From contig NC_023035.1 of assembly GCF_000507245.1 (NCBI RefSeq), forward strand, positions 3,701,570 to 3,765,569: a stretch of 64,000 bases of DNA. The letters run 5' to 3'. A model generated the notes under the pieces. The model was not told the origin of the DNA and did no database searches. It was given only the letters and a program-made list of their open reading frames with translations. The stretch comes from Salinispira pacifica (lineage in GTDB: Bacteria; Spirochaetota; Spirochaetia; DSM-27196; Salinispiraceae). Made by a program: the position numbers and the translations under genes. Of this stretch, positions 36,536 to 64,000 are shown in pieces; within the stretch, counting starts at the first letter, position 1; each line of letters opens with the position of its first letter.

Positions 36536-37690
36536 TCAGCTCCGGCGTGTCAGCAATGAATCGGTCAGATTTTTCAATTCCGAGAGGTCAAGTCCGCTCA
36601 GCTGTTCAGCCCGGTGAAGAGCCCTGTCCGCCCGATTGGCGTAGAGCTCTGCCTCGGCCATACTGGATCTGCAGGCGTGTTCCATTTTCGGATCCCGCAG
36701 AATCCCTTCCACCTGAACGTCGCCGTTCCATACAGCCCTGATCTGCTTCTCATCCAGACTGTTTTCCTTCAGGAGCCGTATTATCGGCAGCGTCAGAATT
36801 CCGTCCCGGAGATCCTGGCCCTTGGTTTTTCCGTTATCCGCATGAATATCCAGATCAAGAATATCATCAATAATCTGGAAAGCCATACCGTTGGCGTAGC
36901 CGTACCTCCGGATGTATCTGCACTCAGGGGGATCGTTCCGGGGATCGTCGTCGTACTCCCCTTGCTGCCTCAGCTGAAGCGCTTCCCGGGTACCGATATA
37001 CATGGCCAGAGAGAACATTACCGCAGTTTTTCCGGCAATTCTCTGCTTGTACAGTCTTTGGCTCGCACCGGCATCCAGATCGAAGGCGAGACTGTTCTGA
37101 AGCATCTCTCCCCTGCAGATACCGCCCACCACACGACTGATAATCCGCGCGGAATTGACGCTGGCAGATTCGCTCACCAGCTGAAAAGCCATGGTCAGAA
37201 GATGGTCGCCCAACAGTATTGAGAGGCGGTTACCCAAGAGCTTGCTGGCAGTGGGCCTTCCTCTTCGAAGCTCCGCATTGTCGAGTACATCATCGTGCAG
37301 CAAAGTCGCGGTGTGCAATACTTCTATTGCAGCCGCCAGAAGATAAAACCTGAAGGGCAGCCCCCCCGGATAGGGGATCTTTTCCAGATTAACCGACTCG
37401 AAGTTATAAAAATCAGGTATATTTTTTTGAATTTCTCCCCGGAACTGTTCTGCATCCATATTTCGGACAGAGGCGGTAATTTTTTCCGGCTTCCGTCCAT
37501 AAAAGATGCCTGCACATAACAGCAGCAGTCCGGGTCTGATCATCTTCCCCGGCGGATCGAAAAGAGACCGAGCGGCCTCCCGAATCCGGTCGTTTGGAAG
37601 CTGATAATGATCTATGCTCTCAAGAATGATCCCCCGAACCAATTCAAGTTCGGGGGTCATCCATGTGAGATTCTTCCAGAATTTTTTCAT
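36536..37690 (-). CDS. Polyprenyl diphosphate synthase
   Basis: A 384-residue trans-isoprenyl diphosphate synthase. The first Asp-rich motif is HDDVLDNAELRRGRP and the second is IIDDILDLD. It condenses IPP with allylic diphosphates to make a C30-C50 chain for quinones or lipids. It is about 60 residues longer than most relatives because of an N-terminal extension and a small loop. It lies 15 bases after the NDH-2/DoxX gene on the same strand, which suggests the prenyl chain serves the respiratory quinone pool. Confidence 0.88.
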   Translation of the reverse strand: MKKFWKNLTWMTPELELVRGIILESIDHYQLPNDRIREAARSLFDPPGKMIRPGLLLLCAGIFYGRKPEKITASVRNMDAEQFRGEIQKNIPDFYNFESVNLEKIPYPGGLPFRFYLLAAAIEVLHTATLLHDDVLDNAELRRGRPTASKLLGNRLSILLGDHLLTMAFQLVSESASVNSARIISRVVGGICRGEMLQNSLAFDLDAGASQRLYKQRIAGKTAVMFSLAMYIGTREALQLRQQGEYDDDPRNDPPECRYIRRYGYANGMAFQIIDDILDLDIHADNGKTKGQDLRDGILTLPIIRLLKENSLDEKQIRAVWNGDVQVEGILRDPKMEHACRSSMAEAELYANRADRALHRAEQLSGLDLSELKNLTDSLLTRRS

Positions 37691-37705: not shown

Positions 37706-39817
37706 TTATTTCTTGCGGCGGCGGATTACCGGTTCATCTGTGTAAAGATGTGTCCGCTGAGCCAGCTGAGTGCTGTTCCACCGGCGTTTCAGCCAGGGCA
37801 TTACCCAGTGGTCCAGACCGGCAACATGGCCGGCTCCGCCCATCATAACTATAGCCAGGAAGAGGAACCACAGCTGTGCCCAGGAGAACATTCCGGAAAG
37901 GATGAAAACGAATACCAGACCGATGGAAGCAACTGCCGCAGGCCAGGTAAAGAGCCCCGCAATCAGAGCAAGTCCGATGGCTACTTCGGCACCCACAATC
38001 ATCACCTGGAAGAGCTGATACGGCAGCAGTGCAAACAGCCCGTCCATGAACGTTTCCCGGAACCAGACAACAATGGGGGAATCCCATTGGAAAATGGTCT
38101 GATCAAGATTTATGGTCCAGCCGTTCACAGCTTCCGCTGCGGCTTCGGTGGCTTCTCCGGCCCATTCTGTTGCGGCTGCAGTTGCATCCGCAGCCGCTTC
38201 ACCTGCTTCGGCTGCTGCGTCGCCCGCTGCGGCTGCAGCTTCTCCGGCTGTTTCTCCGGCAGCTTCTGCGCCTTCCTCCCATTCGGGACTTGCAGCAGCA
38301 ACAGCTTCGGCAGCTCCGGCCTGTGTTACGCCCTGACTGAACATCCAGCCGGATTTGGTTCCCTCGGAAAAATTCAGCCAGCCTTCACCGACCTTCTTCA
38401 GTCCTTCAACAACCCAGACAAAACCGAGCCAGAGCCGGGCGGGAAGTGCCCAGTAGGCAGGAATCTTGGCAGATGCATGTCCGCCGATAATAGAGCGCTT
38501 GTTCCTGATAGTCAGAAACTCTTCTTTCAGATACCCCCAGACGGCATTCACCCCTGCAAGTTCAAACAGGTAGTGGACGTTGATCAGATGTTTGGCTGCC
38601 ATGGCCATGAATCCGTACAGGCTGATTCCCATTACATGGGCCACCCCGTACTTGCCGCCGATGGAAACCATAAATCCGTGGTAATTGGGCTTGAATGATT
38701 TTTTCTCGCCGCCCTTTATGTCCGCAATGATGTTATGGGCTACAACATCACCGGTCTGTATGGCAGTTTCCACAATCTGGGGAACAACCTTTTCCTCATT
38801 CACATACCAGATCATGTCTCCGCAGAGGTACACGTTGGTGAAATCCACGGAACGCATGTTTTCAGTAACCAGAATTCGTCCCCGTTCACCCACAACATAG
38901 CGGTCTTCATCATCGAAGTGACAGCCTGCCATGCCGTGAATACCCTCGGGGCTGGCAATTGAACAGTTATCGTTGGATGTCTTTCCTTTGGTGAGAGGAA
39001 TTCGGGCGGTAAATTCGGATCCGTGAATACCGCAGGTCCAGACGAATGTTTCGGTTTCATACACCGTGCCGTCGGAGAGAGTGAATTTGCCCGCTTCGCC
39101 TTCTTTTACCGCTGCATTCAGATGCACTTCCGCACCCATTTTTTTCAGATACTTCATTGCTGCTTTCTGGGGTTTTTCAGGCAGTATGGGCAGAATAGTG
39201 TCCTGAGCTTCAACGATGATGATCCGGACTTCTTTTTTGTCTATGTGATATTTGTCACAGAGCACATCTCTGAGCTCCAGCAACTCGCCCGCCAGTTCCA
39301 TACCGGTGAAACCGGCTCCGGCAATTACAAAGTTCAGCAGTTTTGCCCGCTTTTCCTTGCTAGGTTCCTTCGCTGCCTCCCGGAACATCAGTTCTACGTG
39401 TTCCCGGATACGGATCGCATCTTCCAGACTCCACAGAGTGAAAGAGTTTTCCTGAATGCCGGGGACACCGAAAAATTCCGGCTGCCCGCCGGTGGCAAGA
39501 ACCAGGTAATCATACTCATATTCGAAGCTTTCCGATTTAACAACTTTTTCTTCAAAATCGATGGATGAAACTTCGTCACTGATGACGTTTACCCGCTTTC
39601 CCCCGAAAATTCTTTTGAAACTGATTTGAACAGCTTCGGGCTCGGTTCGATGCCCCGCAATTTCATGAAGTTCGGTCATAAGGGTGTGGTACGGGTTCCT
39701 ATCTATAAGGGTGATCTCTACGGATCTGTCCTTTTTGAATTCCTTGTACAGTTTCTTTACGGCATGAACACCGCCGTAACCTCCGCCAAGGACGACAATT
39801 TTGGTACTGTCGCTCAC
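37706..39817 (-). CDS. NDH-2-type NADH dehydrogenase fused to a DoxX-like membrane domain
   Basis: A 703-residue fusion. Residues about 5-440 are an FAD flavoprotein of the type II NADH:quinone oxidoreductase family: FAD motif GGGYGG (11-16), ATGG (108-111), NAD motif GAGFTG (167-172) and the second FAD motif CGD (332-334). The C-terminal part (about 445-680) is a DoxX-like four-helix membrane domain (LWLGFVWVVEGLKKV, GAEVAIGLALIAGLF, LFLAIVMMGGAGH), split by an Ala/Glu/Gly-rich linker (about 497-565). The fusion anchors the dehydrogenase directly in the membrane and may couple it to quinone or thiol chemistry. The start is GTG with AGGAGG six bases upstream. It diverges from apbE, and the intergenic region carries an inverted repeat. 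Confidence 0.87.
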   Translation of the reverse strand: MSDSTKIVVLGGGYGGVHAVKKLYKEFKKDRSVEITLIDRNPYHTLMTELHEIAGHRTEPEAVQISFKRIFGGKRVNVISDEVSSIDFEEKVVKSESFEYEYDYLVLATGGQPEFFGVPGIQENSFTLWSLEDAIRIREHVELMFREAAKEPSKEKRAKLLNFVIAGAGFTGMELAGELLELRDVLCDKYHIDKKEVRIIIVEAQDTILPILPEKPQKAAMKYLKKMGAEVHLNAAVKEGEAGKFTLSDGTVYETETFVWTCGIHGSEFTARIPLTKGKTSNDNCSIASPEGIHGMAGCHFDDEDRYVVGERGRILVTENMRSVDFTNVYLCGDMIWYVNEEKVVPQIVETAIQTGDVVAHNIIADIKGGEKKSFKPNYHGFMVSIGGKYGVAHVMGISLYGFMAMAAKHLINVHYLFELAGVNAVWGYLKEEFLTIRNKRSIIGGHASAKIPAYWALPARLWLGFVWVVEGLKKVGEGWLNFSEGTKSGWMFSQGVTQAGAAEAVAAASPEWEEGAEAAGETAGEAAAAAGDAAAEAGEAAADATAAATEWAGEATEAAAEAVNGWTINLDQTIFQWDSPIVVWFRETFMDGLFALLPYQLFQVMIVGAEVAIGLALIAGLFTWPAAVASIGLVFVFILSGMFSWAQLWFLFLAIVMMGGAGHVAGLDHWVMPWLKRRWNSTQLAQRTHLYTDEPVIRRRKK

Positions 39818-39874: not shown

Positions 39875-40978
39875 ATGAGAAATGATAACATGCAGAAACA
39901 AATTACGCCACGGATTAAGAGCCTTGGAAGGCTGCTAATTCGAACTATTTTTATCTATATAGTATTTTCACTATCTTCCTGCGCTGGTGATTCAGGCCCC
40001 GGGGAGCCGGTGCGGCGAACCATCCAAAGTCTCGGTACCATAATCACCGTTACAATATATGATGATCCCAAGGATGAGTATTTTTCCGAATCGTTCAGAA
40101 TCGTACGCAAAATTCACGACCTTATGAGCCTGGAGGTGGAGGAAAGCGATTTGAACCGCCTGAACCGGGCCGCAGGCAGCGGCCGGCCGATTGCAATTGA
40201 TCCCTGGACCTATGAGGTTCTGGAAGAGGCCATCCACATGGCTGAAGTAAGCGATTCTGCATTTACACCGGCAATAGAACCGCTGGTATCTCTCTGGGAC
40301 ATCGGCGGCCCCGATCAGCAGGTACCGGATGAGAATCAGGTTGCCCCACTTCTGCCTCTTTTGGACTATGAACAGATTCGGCTCTATGAACCCGAGGACC
40401 CTTCCTCAAACTCCCCCAGGGCCGAATTGCTCACCCCCGGCATGGGCGTGGATCTGGGAGGTATTGCCAAGGGCTATGCTGCGGATCTTGTTTCCAATTA
40501 TCTGAAAAAAGAAGGTGTGAAGCACGCAATTCTTGATTTCGGCGGCAACATTATGACCATCGGCCGGAAAACTGCGGATCGGCCCTGGATCATCGGCCTG
40601 CAACGGCCGGACATGCAGCGGGGGGTGTATCTGGGCACACTGCCTGCTGATGATCTTTCCATTGTAACATCCGGGGTGTATGAGCGCTTTTTTATAGAAG
40701 ATGATGTTCGCTACCATCATCTTCTGGATTCCCGTGACGGTTTCCCGGCAGATAACCGGCTGGAAGGGGTGGTTATCGTATCGGATGTGAGCATGACTGC
40801 CGACGGATACTCCACCGCAGTGTTTGTGAAGGGCCTGGAACAGGGGAAAGAACTTGTGGAATCCCGGAATGAAATCGAGGCGATTTTTATTACCGGGGAT
40901 CTTCAGGTAATTGTCAGCCCGGGTCTGGTTGACCAGTTCACACTCATTGATGACAGTTTCAGCCTGGGAGAATGGTAA
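39875..40978 (+). CDS. apbE: FAD:protein FMN transferase, lipoprotein form
   Basis: A 367-residue ApbE. It has a lipoprotein signal with lipobox LSSC (Cys near 36). The flavin- and Mg-binding motifs are LGTIITVTIYD, DLGGIAKGYAAD, VDFGGNIMTIG-type LDFGGNIMTIG and SIVTSGVYERFF. It attaches FMN to Thr residues of Rnf/Nqr-type or other flavoproteins in the periplasm. It is convergent with the NusG-II gene, a common neighbour of ApbE. The in-frame ATG at 39890 is an alternative start; neither has a Shine-Dalgarno. Confidence 0.92.
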   Translation: MRNDNMQKQITPRIKSLGRLLIRTIFIYIVFSLSSCAGDSGPGEPVRRTIQSLGTIITVTIYDDPKDEYFSESFRIVRKIHDLMSLEVEESDLNRLNRAAGSGRPIAIDPWTYEVLEEAIHMAEVSDSAFTPAIEPLVSLWDIGGPDQQVPDENQVAPLLPLLDYEQIRLYEPEDPSSNSPRAELLTPGMGVDLGGIAKGYAADLVSNYLKKEGVKHAILDFGGNIMTIGRKTADRPWIIGLQRPDMQRGVYLGTLPADDLSIVTSGVYERFFIEDDVRYHHLLDSRDGFPADNRLEGVVIVSDVSMTADGYSTAVFVKGLEQGKELVESRNEIEAIFITGDLQVIVSPGLVDQFTLIDDSFSLGEW

Positions 40979-41054: not shown

Positions 41055-41528
41055 TCAGAATGCGGTTGCATCAATCTCGGCACCGCTTTCATCTCTGGGA
41101 GGCGCGCTGTCCAGGCGGATAATTACCCGGTTGGGCAGGCAGGCCGCCCAGTCCCCTCCGTTTTCCAGCCATCCGGCATGTACGCAAATCTGATCTCTGC
41201 AGTCCGAACTTTGAAACCGGGCCCTTCCGTTTCCATCCAGCTCAACGACAGTTGAGCCGATGGGGCCCCGGTATTCCAGGATTCTGGGAGTTTCCAGATC
41301 GTAGCGGTATTCATCCCCTGCGCTCTGAATGAGCAGCGACCCGGCCTCTCCGAAACTCTGCAGGGATATCACCAGAAACAGACCGAACAGTCCCGCATAC
41401 ACAAGAGCAATGAGAAAGTCCCCGGGACGAAGAAAGCCCCGGATGTTTCGTATCAGGCTGCGTACGGCAGATGCCGGATTTCCGTTCCCGCTCTTTTTAC
41501 CTTCGGGTTTTTTTGAATTCTTCTTCAT
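41055..41528 (-). CDS. NusG domain II (DUF1312) membrane protein
   Basis: A 157-residue protein with a basic N-terminus, one membrane helix (about 37-58) and a C-terminal NusG-domain-II fold. It has DCRDQICVHAGW, then AACLPNRVIIRL, the pattern of DUF1312 proteins (P-C-P-H/D-x2-C-V...C-L-P-N-K/R). These are often found beside ApbE and Rnf/Nqr flavoprotein genes and are thought to help in their assembly. GGAG precedes the ATG. It ends 76 bases from the convergent apbE. Confidence 0.85.
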   Translation of the reverse strand: MKKNSKKPEGKKSGNGNPASAVRSLIRNIRGFLRPGDFLIALVYAGLFGLFLVISLQSFGEAGSLLIQSAGDEYRYDLETPRILEYRGPIGSTVVELDGNGRARFQSSDCRDQICVHAGWLENGGDWAACLPNRVIIRLDSAPPRDESGAEIDATAF

Positions 41529-41630: not shown

Positions 41631-42374
41631 CTACTTATGTTTCCGCCGATCCCTGATATACAACGAACGACCCGAGCTGCCGGGATTTTTTCTGGGATCA
41701 ATCTCGAACAGATCAATCTTCTGTACCAGCTCACCCAGCTTGGAATATCCGTAATTCCGCGGATCAAACTGGGGCCAGGCGTTCATAATAATCATCCCCA
41801 CAGTTCCAAGATTGGCCCATCCTTCATCATCCTCACTGTCTTCAATGGCCTTCCTGATTGAGTTTATCAGACGGGAATCCTGCTTCAGCATGTTGCTGTT
41901 GTAGCGCTTGATCTCAGGCGCTTCCTCTTCCTTGGTGCTTCTCAGATTCTCGGTGTAAATGAACCTGTCACAGGCCACAACAAATGATTCGGGAGTCTTC
42001 TTCTCTCCAAAGCCGTACACGGTCATCCCCGACTCACGAAGCCTGGAAGACAGGCGGGTAAAATCGCTGTCGGAACTGACGATGCAGAAACCGTCAAGAT
42101 TTCCTGAATACAGCAGATCCATGGCATCAATGATCAGGGCCGAGTCGGTTGCGTTCTTCCCGCTGGTGTAGGCGAACTGCTGATGGGGCTGAATAGAGTA
42201 CTGAAGAACCAACTCCTTCCATGATTTTAAGTTCGGGCTGGTCCAGTCGCCGTATATCCGTTTCACGCTGGCTATACCGTAATTGGCAACCTCTTCCAGC
42301 ACCGCTTCAATGATTTTCGGCTGGGCGTTATCTGCATCGATAAGTACTGCCAGTCTTTTCTGTAATCCTTCCAT
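41631..42374 (-). CDS. NYN-domain (LabA/DUF88) RNase-like protein with LOTUS-like C-terminus
   Basis: A 247-residue protein. The N-terminal NYN (PIN-like) nuclease domain shows LIDADNAQP, ATDSALIIDAMDLLY and VSSDSDF, the Asp residues of the metal site. The C-terminal third (from about 170) has a winged-helix OST-HTH/LOTUS-like region (IRKAIEDSEDDEGWANLGTVG and YGYSKLGELVQKI). The pair is known in bacteria and probably acts on RNA. GGAGG sits before the ATG. Confidence 0.87.
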   Translation of the reverse strand: MEGLQKRLAVLIDADNAQPKIIEAVLEEVANYGIASVKRIYGDWTSPNLKSWKELVLQYSIQPHQQFAYTSGKNATDSALIIDAMDLLYSGNLDGFCIVSSDSDFTRLSSRLRESGMTVYGFGEKKTPESFVVACDRFIYTENLRSTKEEEAPEIKRYNSNMLKQDSRLINSIRKAIEDSEDDEGWANLGTVGMIIMNAWPQFDPRNYGYSKLGELVQKIDLFEIDPRKNPGSSGRSLYIRDRRKHK

Positions 42375-58887: not shown

Positions 58888-60165
58888 TCAGGGTACGATG
58901 CGCTTCCTGTCCCTGGGAAACAGACTGGCTTCCTTTACATTGGACAGACCGAGTATCTTCTGAGTAATCCGTTCCAGTCCGATGGCGAATCCGCCATGGG
59001 GGGGACAGCCGTACTTGAAAATATCAATATAGCCGCCCAGTCCCTCCTCGGTCATACCGAATTTGGGCAGGGTTTCTTTCATCATTTCGTACTCATTGAT
59101 CCGGCGGCCGCCGGTGGTAATTTCAAGTCCCCGGAAAATCAGGTCAAAACTTCTGGTCTTCAACCCGTCGGGGTATGTGTAGAACGGTCTCTTTTTTCTG
59201 GGGAACACAGTGATAAATACCGCAGGTACTGAATGCTCCTCCTGGGCCCATTCACAGATCAGCCGTTCACCCTCGGGGTTTATTTCGAAGACCTTCTTCC
59301 CTCCCCTCATGGAGATAATCTTTTTGGCCTCGTCATGGGTGATCCGGGGAATATTATTTACCGCCTCATCATCAGGAACCGTTGCTCCGTATTTTTCGAG
59401 AATGGCAGCTTCGTTTTCCCGTATCCCCCGGAAAATCGCTTTGAGAATTTCCGATTCAATATCCATGAGATCATGCTCATCCTCAATAAAGGCAAGCTCC
59501 ACATCAAGGGAAACATATTCGTTCAAGTGCCTGGGGGTATCATGCTTTTCAGCCCGGTAGGCCGCCCCCACCTCAAAAACCCGTTCAAGACCGCTGGCAA
59601 CCATTGCCTGTTTGTAGAACTGGGGACTTTGTGCCAGATACACCGAGGTATCGAAATATGCCACCTCAAAGAGTCCCGTGCCCCCTTCGGTGCCGGAACC
59701 GATCAGCTTGCTGGTTTTTATCTCGGTAAAATCCTGACTCCGCATGTATTCCTGAAAGTACCTGATCACGGAACTCTGCAGACGGAAAATATCCAGAATC
59801 TTGGGGTTGCGGATGCTGATCATTCTGTTATCCAGAACAGATTCGATACCGGTATTGTCCGCATCCTGGTTAATCTGAAAAGGCAGATCCGGGGCTGCGG
59901 GCGCCAGAACACTGCTCTCACCGGCCTGAACCTCGAATCCACCCGGAGCCTTGGGGTTTGCCCCGACTGTTCCGGTAACCTGAATAACCGATTCCAGGCT
60001 GTACTCGACTTTTCCTTCGTATACCAGCTGGAGAATTCCGCTTCGATCCCTGAGGAGTACAAAACTGATTGCTCCCAATTCCCGGATTCTGTGTACCCAT
60101 CCGGATACTGTCACTTCCCTGCCTTCAAATTCCGGAAGTTCCCGTGCAAGTGTACGTTTCATCAT
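58888..60165 (-). CDS. aspS: Aspartyl-tRNA synthetase, archaeal-type and probably non-discriminating
   Basis: A 425-residue class IIb synthetase. It lacks the GAD insertion of the bacterial form (about 590 residues) and resembles the archaeal/AspRS2 type. The OB-fold anticodon domain is followed by motif 1 (DFTEIKTSKLIGSGTEGGTGLF), motif 2 (YRAEKHDTPRHLNEY) and motif 3 (GGFAIGLERITQ), with C-terminal LFPRDRKR. In the anticodon domain, position 25 is His (WVH, Trp in discriminating archaeal enzymes) and position 74 is Pro (PKAPGG, Lys in those enzymes). This pair marks non-discriminating enzymes that also charge tRNA(Asn). Its start overlaps gatB by four bases (ATGA), so Asp-tRNA(Asn) would be passed straight to the transamidase. 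Confidence 0.92.
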   Translation of the reverse strand: MMKRTLARELPEFEGREVTVSGWVHRIRELGAISFVLLRDRSGILQLVYEGKVEYSLESVIQVTGTVGANPKAPGGFEVQAGESSVLAPAAPDLPFQINQDADNTGIESVLDNRMISIRNPKILDIFRLQSSVIRYFQEYMRSQDFTEIKTSKLIGSGTEGGTGLFEVAYFDTSVYLAQSPQFYKQAMVASGLERVFEVGAAYRAEKHDTPRHLNEYVSLDVELAFIEDEHDLMDIESEILKAIFRGIRENEAAILEKYGATVPDDEAVNNIPRITHDEAKKIISMRGGKKVFEINPEGERLICEWAQEEHSVPAVFITVFPRKKRPFYTYPDGLKTRSFDLIFRGLEITTGGRRINEYEMMKETLPKFGMTEEGLGGYIDIFKYGCPPHGGFAIGLERITQKILGLSNVKEASLFPRDRKRIVP

Positions 60166-62588
60166 AGTTTATCGTCCTTTTCAAGCTGAGCTGCGAATTC
60201 CTCTGCGATTACTCTGGCAAATGCGGATTCGGAACTGTCGGGTCCCATGGCCCTGGCTCCTTCCTTCCACAACTGGTGACTTGTCACATAATCCGCAAAA
60301 TCCACAAGTCCCTCCTGCTGGGATGTACAGTAAAAACGCACACCCTTCGCTTTTCCGTATTCAAGGGCTTCCCTGATGGAAAATGGGGACTGACTGAGGT
60401 TCGCCGTACCTGAATCATACAGTTCCAGAACCAGGCAGTTAACCCCCTGATCAATCAGTGCTTTAATCAGCGAACTTTGCATTCCCGGATATATTTTCAC
60501 CAGCGCCACTCGTTTGAGAATCTGCTCAAAGATAGACGTCACATAATCAAGCTCAGGAAGCTCATCCAGCCGGTCGATATCCAGGTCCGCATTGCTTTCC
60601 GTTTTCTTAAGAATATTCTGATTCCAGGTGCTGAACAGCTGTTCGCCGTCTTCAAAATTCCTGAATTTCAGATTATATGCCGGATACACTCTTCCGGAAA
60701 CGGATACACGGACAGATGAAGGACCGGAAACATCAAGATCGGGCCAGCCTTTTCTTCCCGCCGCTTCCAGCTCCATAATTCCGTTCTTCAGATGGTCAAC
60801 TCCTGAAGAATCTTCTTCCAGGGGATTCACTGCCGCTGTGAGAAGGATGGGCGTGTTGGAGGAGCCGAAAAACCAGTGGAGAAGTGCCGCGGTGTATGCC
60901 AACGTGTCGGTTCCGTGTGCAATGAGAATACCGTTGCTTCCCCGTTTCAGGAGCTTGAAGATTCTGTGAACCAGAGCTGCCCAGTCTTCAGGTGAGAGTT
61001 CTTCACTCAGGAATTTACCCATCTGAATTTCTTCGAACCTGAGATCCGCGGCTATTTCACCGTCGCGGGCAAGATATTTCCGGATATCCAGCATATCCCC
61101 CGGCTCGATAAACCCGTCACCCCTTCGGGTTCCGGATATTGCTCCGCCGAAACTGAGGATGTCCAGAGTTCTTACCTGCAGCGAGCTTGACAGCAGCTGC
61201 TGAACTTTTTTCGGTTCGGCCCGACCGGAGCTGGCCTGCATCACCTTGCCGATGAGAAACTTCACCGGCTTGGAATCTCCCGCCTGGATTTCCTGTACGG
61301 CCTTGGGAAAATCATTGAGAACCCCATCGATAATCTCCTGAATGGCACTGGAATCGGTTATCTGTTCCCAGTTCCGTTCTCTGATAATTGTTTCGGGATC
61401 CTTGTCTTCCTCAAAAATCACCTGCAGCACCTGCTTGGCGATCTTTCCGTGAATCCGACCCTGAGTCAGCAATTGAAGCATCTCCACCAGGCGACGTGAA
61501 CTCAGAGGACTGTGTTCCAGCACCATTCCGTGGCGGTTCAGCTCTTTCTGGACATCGCTGCTCAGCCAGGATACCAGCTGCAGCGGGTCGGCACCGCCCT
61601 GTATACATTCTTCAAAGAAATCGGCGGTGAACTTTTCATCGCAGATGAAATCCGCCTGAAGCTCGTTCAAGCCGTAATCGTTTCGGTAGCGATCCCTTCT
61701 GCTCAGGGGCAGTTCAACCTGAAGATCTTCCACCTGGGAGAGAAATTCCTTGTCCGTCCTGAACGGAGGAAGGTCGGGTTCGGGAAAATACCGGTAATCG
61801 TTGGCGTTTTCCTTGGTACGCATAATCTCAGTCTGATCCCGGTTTTCATTCCAGAGCCGGGTCTCCTGAACTATGGTTCCGCCCTTTTCCATGATTTCGC
61901 TTTGCCGTGAAATTTCGAAACTGAGAGACTTGCGGACAAAGCGGGAGGAGTTCAGGTTTTTCACCTCTACTTTATTTCCCAGCCCCTGGCCCGCAGGGTT
62001 GATGGATACATTGGCATCTGCCCTCATGGACCCTTCTTCCATGTTGCCGTCGGAAACTCCAAGATAGCGTACTATTCGCCGAAGCTCCTGAATGAGAACC
62101 TCCGCCTCTTCTGCCAGTTCAAGATCCGGTTCAGTCACAATTTCAAGGAGGGGTGTTCCGGTGCGGTTGAAATCCAGAAGGCTCATGTCTCCCGCATGAA
62201 CCATCTTTCCCGCATCCTCTTCCAGGTGACATTCGTGAATCCGAACCCGTTTCTTTTTCCCGTTGAATTCAATATCGATATAGCCGTCAGTCCCCAGGGG
62301 CTTCTCAAATTGGGATATCTGATAGTTTTTCGGCAAATCGGGATAAAAGTAGTTCTTCCGCTCAAAAACACACTCTTCGCTGAGCCGGCAGTTCAGTGCT
62401 CTGGCCACCGCATAGGATTTCTTTATGGCTTCTTCATTCAATGCGGGCAGAGATCCCGGCAGGCCCATACAGACCGGGCAAACATTGGTGTTGGGCTCAT
62501 CCCCGAAATGGTTTTTACAGCTGCAGAATACCTTGGACTCGGTTGTAAGCTGTACGTGTATTTCCAAACCGATAAACGATTGGTACAT
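60162..62588 (-). CDS. gatB: Asp/Glu-tRNA amidotransferase subunit B fused to an asparaginase-like domain
   Basis: An 808-residue fusion. Residues 1-470 are a complete GatB: GLEIHVQL, the zinc cysteines C22/C24 and C37/C40, the KNYFYPDLPKNYQISQ and HLEEDAGK segments, the middle helical domain and the YqeY-like C-end (VMQASSGRAEPKKVQQLL). Residues about 473-808 are a type I/II asparaginase fold, as in archaeal GatD. The first catalytic Thr (TGGTI in active enzymes) is Ala: LSFGGAIS, A483. The second pair is kept: AHGTDT, T560 and D561; the catalytic Lys is not certain. The ATG at 62588 has AAGGAG six bases upstream and is preferred over the GTG at 62618. gatA lies 26 bases upstream, aspS overlaps downstream by four bases. 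Confidence 0.92.
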   Translation of the reverse strand: MYQSFIGLEIHVQLTTESKVFCSCKNHFGDEPNTNVCPVCMGLPGSLPALNEEAIKKSYAVARALNCRLSEECVFERKNYFYPDLPKNYQISQFEKPLGTDGYIDIEFNGKKKRVRIHECHLEEDAGKMVHAGDMSLLDFNRTGTPLLEIVTEPDLELAEEAEVLIQELRRIVRYLGVSDGNMEEGSMRADANVSINPAGQGLGNKVEVKNLNSSRFVRKSLSFEISRQSEIMEKGGTIVQETRLWNENRDQTEIMRTKENANDYRYFPEPDLPPFRTDKEFLSQVEDLQVELPLSRRDRYRNDYGLNELQADFICDEKFTADFFEECIQGGADPLQLVSWLSSDVQKELNRHGMVLEHSPLSSRRLVEMLQLLTQGRIHGKIAKQVLQVIFEEDKDPETIIRERNWEQITDSSAIQEIIDGVLNDFPKAVQEIQAGDSKPVKFLIGKVMQASSGRAEPKKVQQLLSSSLQVRTLDILSFGGAISGTRRGDGFIEPGDMLDIRKYLARDGEIAADLRFEEIQMGKFLSEELSPEDWAALVHRIFKLLKRGSNGILIAHGTDTLAYTAALLHWFFGSSNTPILLTAAVNPLEEDSSGVDHLKNGIMELEAAGRKGWPDLDVSGPSSVRVSVSGRVYPAYNLKFRNFEDGEQLFSTWNQNILKKTESNADLDIDRLDELPELDYVTSIFEQILKRVALVKIYPGMQSSLIKALIDQGVNCLVLELYDSGTANLSQSPFSIREALEYGKAKGVRFYCTSQQEGLVDFADYVTSHQLWKEGARAMGPDSSESAFARVIAEEFAAQLEKDDKL

Positions 62589-62614
62589 TCGCTTCTCCTT
62601 GATTTGACCCATGT

Positions 62615-64000
62615 TCACCCCCTCTCCAGACGGTATTCCGCCGGATAATCCCCGGGGCTTTGTATCGGAAAGCTCTCTTTCAATATTTCAGCGCATTCAA
62701 ACAGCAGATGCTCATGAAAGGCAGGCGCCATGAACTGAACTGCGGTGGGCAGAGTATTCAGAACCGGTCCGGGAACTGACAGTCCGGGAAGACCGGTGAG
62801 ATTCGCGGCGGTGGTGAATCGGTCTGCAATTTTCTGCTGGAATGCATCCAGGCCCTGCTCTCCGTGGGGGAATGCCTGGGTGGGAAAAACCGGCAGCATC
62901 AGCGTATCAACACTTTCAAAAAGCTCCCTGAATTCCCGGCGGATTTCGGTGCGTATCTGCTGTGCTTTATGATAAAATCTGTCCTGGAAACCCGAGCGAA
63001 GCACATAGGTACCCAGAAGAATTCGCAGCTTCACCTCATCGCCGAATCCCGCATCCCGGGACTTTCTTACAAGTTCATCAGGATTTTCCGCAAATATCGG
63101 CCGCTCTCCATAACGCACACCGTTGAACCGCGCCAGATTCGCACTGGCCTCGGCGGTTGCAATGGTGTAGTAGGAAGGCACCGTATATTCAAGACTGGGC
63201 ATCTCCACTTCTTTCAGCTCATACCCGGCTTTCTGCAGCTGTTCCACAGCCTGACCGTATGCTTCACCCATTTCCTCGCTCAGCCCCAGCTCTCCGGTGA
63301 GAATTCCGATGGTTTTCACCTCTTTCTTGGCAAGCGGGAAATCCCGGTAATCCACTGAACTCTGATCCATTTCGTCCCTGCCCCGGATGGCGTGAAAAAC
63401 ATCCCGTGTGAGATCGATATCTCCGGCCATAACCCCTACCACATCCAGCGATGACGCATAGGCCACAAGTCCGTATCGGCTTACCGAACCATAAGTTGGT
63501 TTCAATCCGTAAATTCCGCAGAATGCTGCCGGCTGACGCACAGACCCTCCGGTATCTGAACCCAGGGCAAACGGTACCAGACCTGCAGCCACCGCCGCCG
63601 CCGAACCTCCCGACGACCCCCGCAAACCCTGCTCAGATCCCAGGGGTTGTGACTCTGCTGGAGCGCGGAGTTATCGTTTGAAGATCCCATGCCGAACTCA
63701 TCCATATTTGTTTTTCCGGCGGGAACAGCTCCGTGGGCGCTCAGCCGCTGAATCACTGTGGCATCGTAGGGTGAAACGAAATGCTCAAGAAATTTCGACC
63801 CGCAGCTCAGGGGCATGTTCTTCACGGCGATATTGTCTTTTACTGCATAAGGAAGGTTTTCAAGGGAGTTATTGCTGGAATTATTGTCCGGATTGGATTG
63901 AGAATTATTGCCGGCAGCATCACCGGCCGCTGGCTGAACATTCTGTTCCTTCGGGGAAAAGTGAAGAAACGCCGACACGGCCGCATCGCGGTCCGTCACA
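62615..64000 (-). CDS. gatA: Asp/Glu-tRNA amidotransferase subunit A (5' end outside the window, apparent frameshift)
   Basis: This is GatA, the amidase that releases ammonia from glutamine. The catalytic Lys is in [10 protein letters not shown]. The frame then breaks where [12 protein letters not shown] is expected: the first frame runs past NPWDLSRV into VCGGRREV, and the second begins [33 protein letters not shown] with the cis-Ser and nucleophile Ser. The break coincides with the C5 run at 63617-63621; one extra base restores the frame. The rest is normal to the C-terminus. About the first 50 residues lie beyond 64000. It is followed by gatB and aspS. Confidence 0.88.

Follow-up and report, generated by a model that had tools for sequence, protein, structure and literature searches.

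ApbE, an FAD:protein FMN transferase (FAD, flavin adenine dinucleotide; FMN, flavin mononucleotide), recognises a short motif given as D-[GAIQ]-[IALVF]-[ST]-G-A-[ST] (PMC10722498) or as D-x-x-[ST]-G-A-[ST], with seven residues being sufficient (PMC12052999). The known substrates, which share the extracytosolic motif D-x-x-[ST]-[GA]-A-[ST], include NqrC/RnfG, the transmembrane NqrB/RnfD, PplA, and the multi-flavinylated proteins, which hold several sites. In the flavin-based extracellular electron transfer (FLEET) locus of Listeria monocytogenes the annotated genes are fmnA, ApbE, pplA, NADH dehydrogenase, eetA, eetB and polyprenyl synthetase, and PplA is reported to be flavinylated at two sites (PMC9973259). 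Here we describe a gene from Salinispira pacifica, found in a stretch of 64,000 nucleotides (NC_023035.1, positions 3,701,570 to 3,765,569; hereafter the window), whose product joins a type II NADH dehydrogenase (NDH-2) and a DoxX-like four-helix membrane domain in one chain. We consider it probable, at roughly two chances in three, that this protein is the Ndh2 of a FLEET-type system and that a long insert in its DoxX part is a putative extracytosolic (multi)flavinylation site, which would make the NDH-2 an outward electron carrier.

The exit of electrons from the membrane in FLEET bacteria is a gap that such a protein would fit. The direct donor to ferric iron in Enterococcus faecalis, Listeria and Lactiplantibacillus plantarum is described as not known, and ferric reduction by E. 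faecalis needs Ndh3 and EetB, not PplA (PMC9864754). Similarly, flavin-dependent iron reduction by L. plantarum needs ndh2 and eetA/B, not pplA, and an 'uncharacterized extracellular flavinated reductase' has been invoked (PMC9888254). If Ndh2 itself carries flavin, a single gene would explain the need for Ndh2 and the FAD exporter without PplA. That Ndh2 can be membrane bound is already known, Meheust et al. having taken 'a NADH dehydrogenase ... with a transmembrane helix' as a mark of extracellular electron transfer (PMC8238504); what is new here is the flavinylation-like motif in the insert. Among the matches listed in the open-licence literature, none proposed that Ndh2 is itself flavinylated or tied NDH-2/DoxX to its own flavinylation. 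In PMC11334425, Flavodoxin_4 and FMN_red proteins are likewise known flavoprotein families with an acquired flavinylation motif, co-localised with apbE; the terms NDH, NADH dehydrogenase and DoxX have no occurrences in its main text. A Haloferax paper with DoxX and electron transfer names DoxX proteins in a proteome table only.

The fusion gene is an intact open reading frame of exactly 37706..39817 on the minus strand, with an AGGAGG, read by eye, immediately 5' of its GTG start. Its parts, in window coordinates, are:

37706..39817, minus strand: NDH-2/DoxX fusion gene, 703 amino acids (aa), GTG start (open reading frame, Pfam, alignment, AlphaFold2 model)
38513..39817, minus strand: NDH-2 (Pyr_redox_2) part, residues 1-435, predicted cytosolic (Pfam, sequence match to the Protein Data Bank, Foldseek)
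38387..38458, minus strand: DoxX-like membrane helix 1, residues 454-477 (AlphaFold2 model, alignment)
38108..38320, minus strand: Ala/Glu/Gly-rich insert, residues ~500-570, in the loop that connects DoxX helices 1 and 2 and is predicted to be extracytosolic (alignment, model, positive-inside counts)
37844..38020, minus strand: DoxX-like membrane helices 2-4, residues 600-658 (Pfam, model)

A Pfam scan of the protein matched residues 6-268 to Pyr_redox_2 (E 5e-38) and, marginally, residues 595-640 alone to DoxX (25.3 bits against a cut-off of 23.6). The closest solved proteins by sequence are NDH-2 enzymes, such as that of Caldalkalibacillus thermarum (4nwz, E 6e-63). A Foldseek search with the AlphaFold2 model (mean predicted local distance difference test (pLDDT) score 85.5; predicted template modelling score, pTM, 0.79) gave template modelling scores (TMt) of 0.91-0.94 to the best bacterial NDH-2 chains; the best 50 matches hold NDH-2-like flavoproteins and were uninformative on the DoxX part. 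Although 4nwz and the Staphylococcus aureus enzyme 5na1 have the same FAD/NADH domain and fold as the window protein, their chains, of 405 and 408 residues, are without its DoxX part and loop. Two glutamines, Q347 and Q354, candidates for the conserved quinone-site glutamines of NDH-2, are present in 108 and 118, respectively, of 130 aligned homologues. From the nearness of its sequence and fold to solved NDH-2 enzymes, the window protein probably has NADH:quinone activity.

In the model, helices at residues 454-477, 600-620, 624-640 and 646-658 form a four-helix membrane bundle interrupted by the insert, of which residues 512-567 have a pLDDT below 50. Given this order of NDH-2, one helix, a poorly predicted segment and three further helices, the segment rich in Ala, Glu and Gly sits within DoxX as an insert and does not join the two domains. 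The window protein is an NDH-2 whose membrane anchor is a split DoxX-like domain. A first-pass annotation, made from the letters of the window, had already described an NDH-2 fused to DoxX, that is, a peripheral flavoprotein with a split DoxX-like membrane anchor, and the Pfam search (Pyr_redox_2 plus DoxX) and the model agree with it. Its reasoning that the Ala/Glu/Gly-rich segment splits DoxX also stands, but not its title, in which the segment was a linker joining NDH-2 and DoxX. A second poorly predicted insert lies in the NDH-2 part (residues 283-310, window 38890-38970; CSIASPEGIHGMAGC); it holds two cysteines, C285 and C299, and is mostly missing in 8 of 18 aligned relatives.

The architecture is widespread. 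Of 296 sampled spirochaete-phylum genomes, 68 gave matches with E values of 1e-20 or lower, and in 18, the window genome included, the match runs into the DoxX part in one frame of at least 640 aa; the fusion is thus in one open frame in 17 of the other 295. Homologues were aligned via phmmer, since blastp missed two of them (L038 and L039) and tblastn recovered only their DoxX part; the L038 fusion frame is open, as seen by translation. Among named genomes, the best 80 of at least 522 relatives are mainly from spirochaetes, with Caloramator, Thermoanaerobacter/Caldanaerobacter, Vallitalea and other Clostridia, and 77 of the 79 aligned named loci reach the second DoxX helix. Records of Listeria monocytogenes, Enterococcus raffinosus and Acetoanaerobium noterae have the same NDH-2/DoxX architecture. 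In the phylum of a Caldanaerobacter genome (G341), 73 of 398 genomes match Listeria Ndh2 at 1e-60. By frame length 45 of these 73 are fusions, and the DoxX part was confirmed in 45/45: 30 are in the alignment and all of these reach DoxX helix 2, and the other 15 all have the DoxX part. The fusion is conserved in Spirochaetes and Firmicutes. The idea that it is an assembly artefact or a one-off is hardly credible in the face of these counts, and misassembly or chance fusion was rejected, the window genome being a single contig of 3.78 Mb and the architecture recurring across many genomes. The first-pass annotation had named misassembly, or a missing DoxX part in homologues, as the findings that would speak against it; the latter check came out the opposite way, with 128 of 130 aligned homologues reaching the second DoxX helix.

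The same annotation suggested a combined NADH:quinone/thiol enzyme using DoxX thiol chemistry. The DoxX and DoxD families are linked to thiosulfate:quinone and thiol reactions, and DoxD also matches some relatives of the window protein, above cut-off in L119. However, residues 436-703 contain no cysteine, nor is there a widely conserved one in this region: a single column of the 130 homologues has Cys in at least 30% (61/130), and the window protein is without Cys there. In addition, the genes close by encode ApbE, NusG_II and polyprenyl synthetase. Thiol chemistry in the cysteine-free DoxX part was thus rejected; the quinone half of the suggestion is probable, as above, while the combined enzyme is very improbable.

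We then turn to the insert itself, which in the first 18 proteins varies from 62 to 182 aa and contains the recurring heptads DAVSAAS, DTVTAAS, DSVTAAT, DAVSAAT, EAVSAAS and EEVSGAT. The inserts of homologues hold a family motif, D-x-V-[ST]-[GSA]-A-[ST], which is often repeated within an insert and is near the ApbE flavinylation consensus. Motif statistics were computed over 97 inserts, reduced to 65 representatives under 80% identity (L088 was excluded as too short). The strict pattern D..[ST][GSA]A[ST] gave 68 sites in the representatives against 0.9±1.0 in composition-preserving shuffles, and was present in 39/65 of them (54/97 sequences) against 0.8 in shuffles. The relaxed pattern [DE]..[STA][GSA]A[ST] gave 131 sites against 3.4, in 56/65 representatives. 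Controls with K/R at the first position, with the motif reversed or with the Asp shifted by one were at background, and N/Q at the first position gave 5 sites against 0.8. When every triple of residues in the variable part was scored with no motif presupposed, D.V...S, D..S..S, D.V..A and D.VS came out at the top, coinciding with positions 1, 3, 4, 6 and 7 of the ApbE motif. The scoring was limited to the variable part because an aligned WMFS stretch before it dominated the whole-loop scan, and it covered 51 of 60 representatives, those with at least 12 variable residues, so that the shortest loops are not represented.

Some relatives carry the exact consensus, namely DAVSGAS in L125 and L129, DTVSGAT in L120 and DAVTGAT in L102 and L170; L102 has four sites. 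The most regular array seen is in a Firmicutes genome (L244; contig C10, 6500-11500), where one DoxX loop holds seven copies of DAVTAAT at a spacing of ~14 residues. In the inserts of L083, L086, L098, L100 and L101 (spirochaetes, several of them Treponema/Spirochaetaceae metagenome-assembled genomes), repeated DLFG units (e.g. EDLFGGAADAGADLFG) lie between the flavinylation-like motifs.

The main rival to flavinylation is that the insert is a flexible or helical low-complexity spacer, its motif being compositional or structural (helix capping) and the protein a membrane-anchored NADH:menaquinone reductase. The window loop is 28% Ala, the insert core is the part with pLDDT below 50, loop length varies widely, and the window's own sites are degenerate, all of which would suit a spacer. 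Composition does not, however, account for the excess of strict sites over shuffles, with the shifted and reversed controls at background, nor for the exact ApbE consensus in some relatives, nor for the survival of the motif core in Firmicutes loops of 8% Ala (see below). We therefore regard a mere spacer as unlikely, although of the alternatives it deserves the most weight.

Two candidate sites, both degenerate, can be recognised in the window protein:

38288..38308, minus strand: candidate flavinylation site 1, EAVAAAS, residues 504-510, putative acceptor S510 (from the family motif)
38168..38188, minus strand: candidate flavinylation site 2, DATAAAT, residues 544-550, putative acceptor T550 (from the nearest relative, L032)

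The nearest relative has DATAAAS twice and DATTAAS once. The window protein, with Ala at position 4 as well as at position 5, is among the weaker cases. For A at position 5, and perhaps for E at position 1, there are parallels elsewhere. In a review of ApbE, G-to-A leaves ~50% flavinylation and D-to-A has a minor effect (PMC12052999). In the FMN_bind proteins of the 18 spirochaete fusion genomes, position 5 is G in 17 and A in 8 of 25 sites (e.g. DAITAAT), counts that depend on a pattern in which position 1 was preset to D and position 5 to [GSA] (the motif was present at 25 of 33 FMN_bind loci, with near-matches only at 3 and none at 5). The window genome's own RnfG has DSITAAT and the adjoining RnfD-like protein DAASSAT; we take these to be RnfG and RnfD from their place in the operon. 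Listeria PplA has EVVSGAT and DTVSGAT, and if these are, as we infer, its two flavinylated sites, E at position 1 would be acceptable. Compared with the known ApbE substrates, the fusion family differs in that an NADH dehydrogenase bears the sites, as linear repeats within a loop modelled at low confidence, mostly with A at position 5 and sometimes with E at position 1. A Pfam scan found no FMN_bind domain in the window protein.

Flavinylation by ApbE would require the loop to lie outside the cytoplasm. Over the 130 homologues, K+R per 100 residues fall from 20.5 ahead of helix 1 to 3.8 in the loop and rise again to 21.6 in the C-terminal tail. By these positive-inside counts the NDH-2 domain and the tail are predicted to be inside and the insert is predicted to be extracytosolic, on ApbE's side of the membrane.

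Many Firmicutes loops are short, not Ala-rich, and centred on LVSGATTSP, LVAGASTSP, SAGASSAP or LVSGSS. In loops of up to 45 aa (mean 8% Ala), the core [SAT]G[AS][ST] is present in 9/9 representatives (shuffles 0.2), and one of three motif forms occurs in 23/24 Firmicutes-type representatives (shuffles 1.9). The 15 Firmicutes fusions outside the alignment have at least one of the three forms in 15/15 and the strict form in 7/15. By comparison, [SA]GA[ST] was found within the first 60 aa of the DoxX match in 0/22 DoxX proteins not fused to NDH-2, whereas among 8 NDH-2-fused DoxX proteins in the same set it was present in 4, with SGSS in the other 4. Listeria monocytogenes Ndh2 belongs here (L167:6992-8878, WP_003726299.1; annotated as an FAD-dependent oxidoreductase, and presumably Ndh2 by its position in the FLEET locus). 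Like the window protein it is an NDH-2 with a C-terminal DoxX-like domain, and its loop between helices 1 and 2 has the SGAS core, in one copy and with no Asp at position 1, whereas the window insert is longer and its degenerate site is repeated. The Listeria loop falls within a 60-residue tryptic peptide, which could explain why trypsin-based proteomics would miss it.

The genes surrounding the fusion also point to a FLEET-type system:

36536..37690, minus strand: polyprenyl synthetase, in a DmkB-like position, 15 bases downstream of the fusion (Pfam)
39875..40978, plus strand: ApbE, FAD:protein FMN transferase, divergent from the fusion, with a lipoprotein-signal-like N-terminus (LSSC, by eye) (Pfam, E 8e-80)
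41055..41528, minus strand: EetA-like protein with NusG domain II and, by eye, a hydrophobic helix at its N-terminus (Pfam, comparison with Listeria eetA)

The window locus thus has ApbE (FmnB), NusG_II (EetA) and polyprenyl synthetase (DmkB) in common with that of Listeria. It differs in lacking PplA and in having its EetB-like gene elsewhere in the genome: EetB (PF07456), the FAD export subunit, is present in one copy at 1.40 Mb, away from the locus (the window being at 3.70-3.77 Mb). There is no PplA-like FMN_bind lipoprotein at the window locus, and the three FMN_bind matches in the genome are all outside the window. ApbE gave a single match in the genome, and there is one UbiA prenyltransferase. 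Cytochrome bd subunit I, the only oxidase looked for in the window genome, gave no match, so that O2 respiration via bd is not the obvious sink. Within the flanks fetched for 97 related loci, a polyprenyl synthetase homologue was found at 88, one of NusG_II at 21, of ApbE at 19 and of PF07456/EetB at 17, many flanks ending at contig ends and three pairs (L033/L099, L044/L062, L047/L117), apparently from the same contigs, being both counted.

ApbE also co-occurs with the fusion. It is present in 18/18 spirochaete fusion genomes against 223/296 of those sampled overall. Among the sampled Firmicutes, ApbE is found in 45/45 fusion genomes against 222/353 others (Fisher p 8e-9) and against 14/28 genomes with plain NDH-2 only (p 1e-7), neither value being corrected for kinship; in at least 23 of the 45 no more than 10 kb separates it from the fusion. 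This co-occurrence and adjacency, together with the fixed spacing of the Ser/Thr to an upstream Asp/Glu, close to the ApbE consensus, also bear on whether an agent other than ApbE modifies or binds the motifs, for example through O-glycosylation or a partner protein. Ser/Thr/Ala-rich extracytosolic stretches are common glycosylation substrates, but with spacing and gene distribution both against it we find such an agent distinctly improbable. From the motif, the predicted topology, the co-occurrence and the gene context, we infer that ApbE modifies the loop.

Several observations at the locus and elsewhere in the genome stand apart from this. The NusG_II gene adjoins a gene for a NYN nuclease with OST-HTH/LOTUS (window 41631-42374, minus strand), a homologue of which is near the fusion in 5/97 loci. 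The EetB-like PF07456 protein (L001:1318-2805; genome match 1403977-1404405) is 495 aa long, with the match at 62-204 and a long C-terminal extension without Pfam match; a transporter subunit of the FAD exporter may have been fused on there. Two separate Nqr/Rnf-type operons of the window genome (L049 and L050) each have an FMN_bind subunit (DAITGAT and DSITAAT), and a further FMN_bind protein, with DAYTGAT (L051; genome 2282586-2282852), is next to a protein in which two rhodanese-like repeats were identified by eye. Elsewhere in the window, GatB (GatB_N, GatB_Yqey) is fused to an asparaginase domain in one open reading frame of 818 aa (60162-62618, minus strand).

A pathway can be proposed from these elements. 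NADH would reduce the FAD of the cytosolic NDH-2 domain, as in the family at large, and electrons would then pass to quinone, either within the four helices of DoxX or where the enzyme meets the membrane. The insert, predicted to lie outside the cytoplasmic membrane, would present a series of tethered sites for recognition by ApbE, which is encoded divergently next to the fusion and would attach FMN to the terminal Ser/Thr of each. The tethered FMNs may take electrons from the membrane quinone or from the domain, and ferric iron, free flavin or other flavoproteins may be among the acceptors that they reduce outside. Both the quinone step and electron carriage by loop flavins are thus conjectural parts of the scheme. 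The site would have been multiplied in many spirochaetes and some Firmicutes, with a single short site kept in other Firmicutes.

Several points weigh against this reading. The window protein's insert has no strict D-x-x-[ST]-[GSA]-A-[ST], only EAVAAAS, with E at position 1 and A at positions 4 and 5, and DATAAAT, with A at positions 4 and 5. Across the family few members have Gly at position 5 as the exact consensus demands (7 sites, in 4/65 representatives and 5/97 sequences; shuffles 0.1), L043-L046 have E-first sites only, the relaxed motif is missing in 13/97 inserts, and 4/130 loops are without any of the three motif forms, yet hold DTVGAAT, NAVASAT or DAVGAAS. In loops of up to 45 aa the strict motif was found in 0/9 representatives: in the short loops the Asp is one residue too far upstream (D-x-x-x-S-G-A-T) or missing, and the SGSS group has Ser at position 6. 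Among seven relatives scanned for Pfam DoxX, Listeria Ndh2 alone passed (23.9 bits), the others being below cut-off. Since ApbE also serves Rnf/Nqr, its co-occurrence is not specific; genome relatedness is uncorrected in the comparison; and in named fusion genomes ApbE was found in 45/50 and not found in 5/50 (50 of the 80 named loci, completeness unstated). In L. plantarum, DHNA-dependent anode current (DHNA, 1,4-dihydroxy-2-naphthoic acid) needs pplA and ndh2 but not eetA/B, flavin-dependent anode current needs pplA, and the double eetA/B deletion cannot separate EetA from EetB (PMC9888254).

If flavinylation of the window protein is nevertheless correct, the range of ApbE substrates would grow to include a membrane NADH dehydrogenase with linear arrays of repeats in a disordered loop, and a FLEET-like pathway would be suggested in many spirochaetes. 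A broader proposal, on which we are evenly divided, is that the entire NDH-2 branch, spirochaetes, Firmicutes and Listeria Ndh2 included, is ApbE-flavinylated on an extracytosolic loop. Each member would then be a one-polypeptide conduit from NADH to the outside, many with a short chain of several tethered FMNs, and Ndh2 would supply the flavinylated carrier that is missing from accounts of extracellular electron transfer without PplA.

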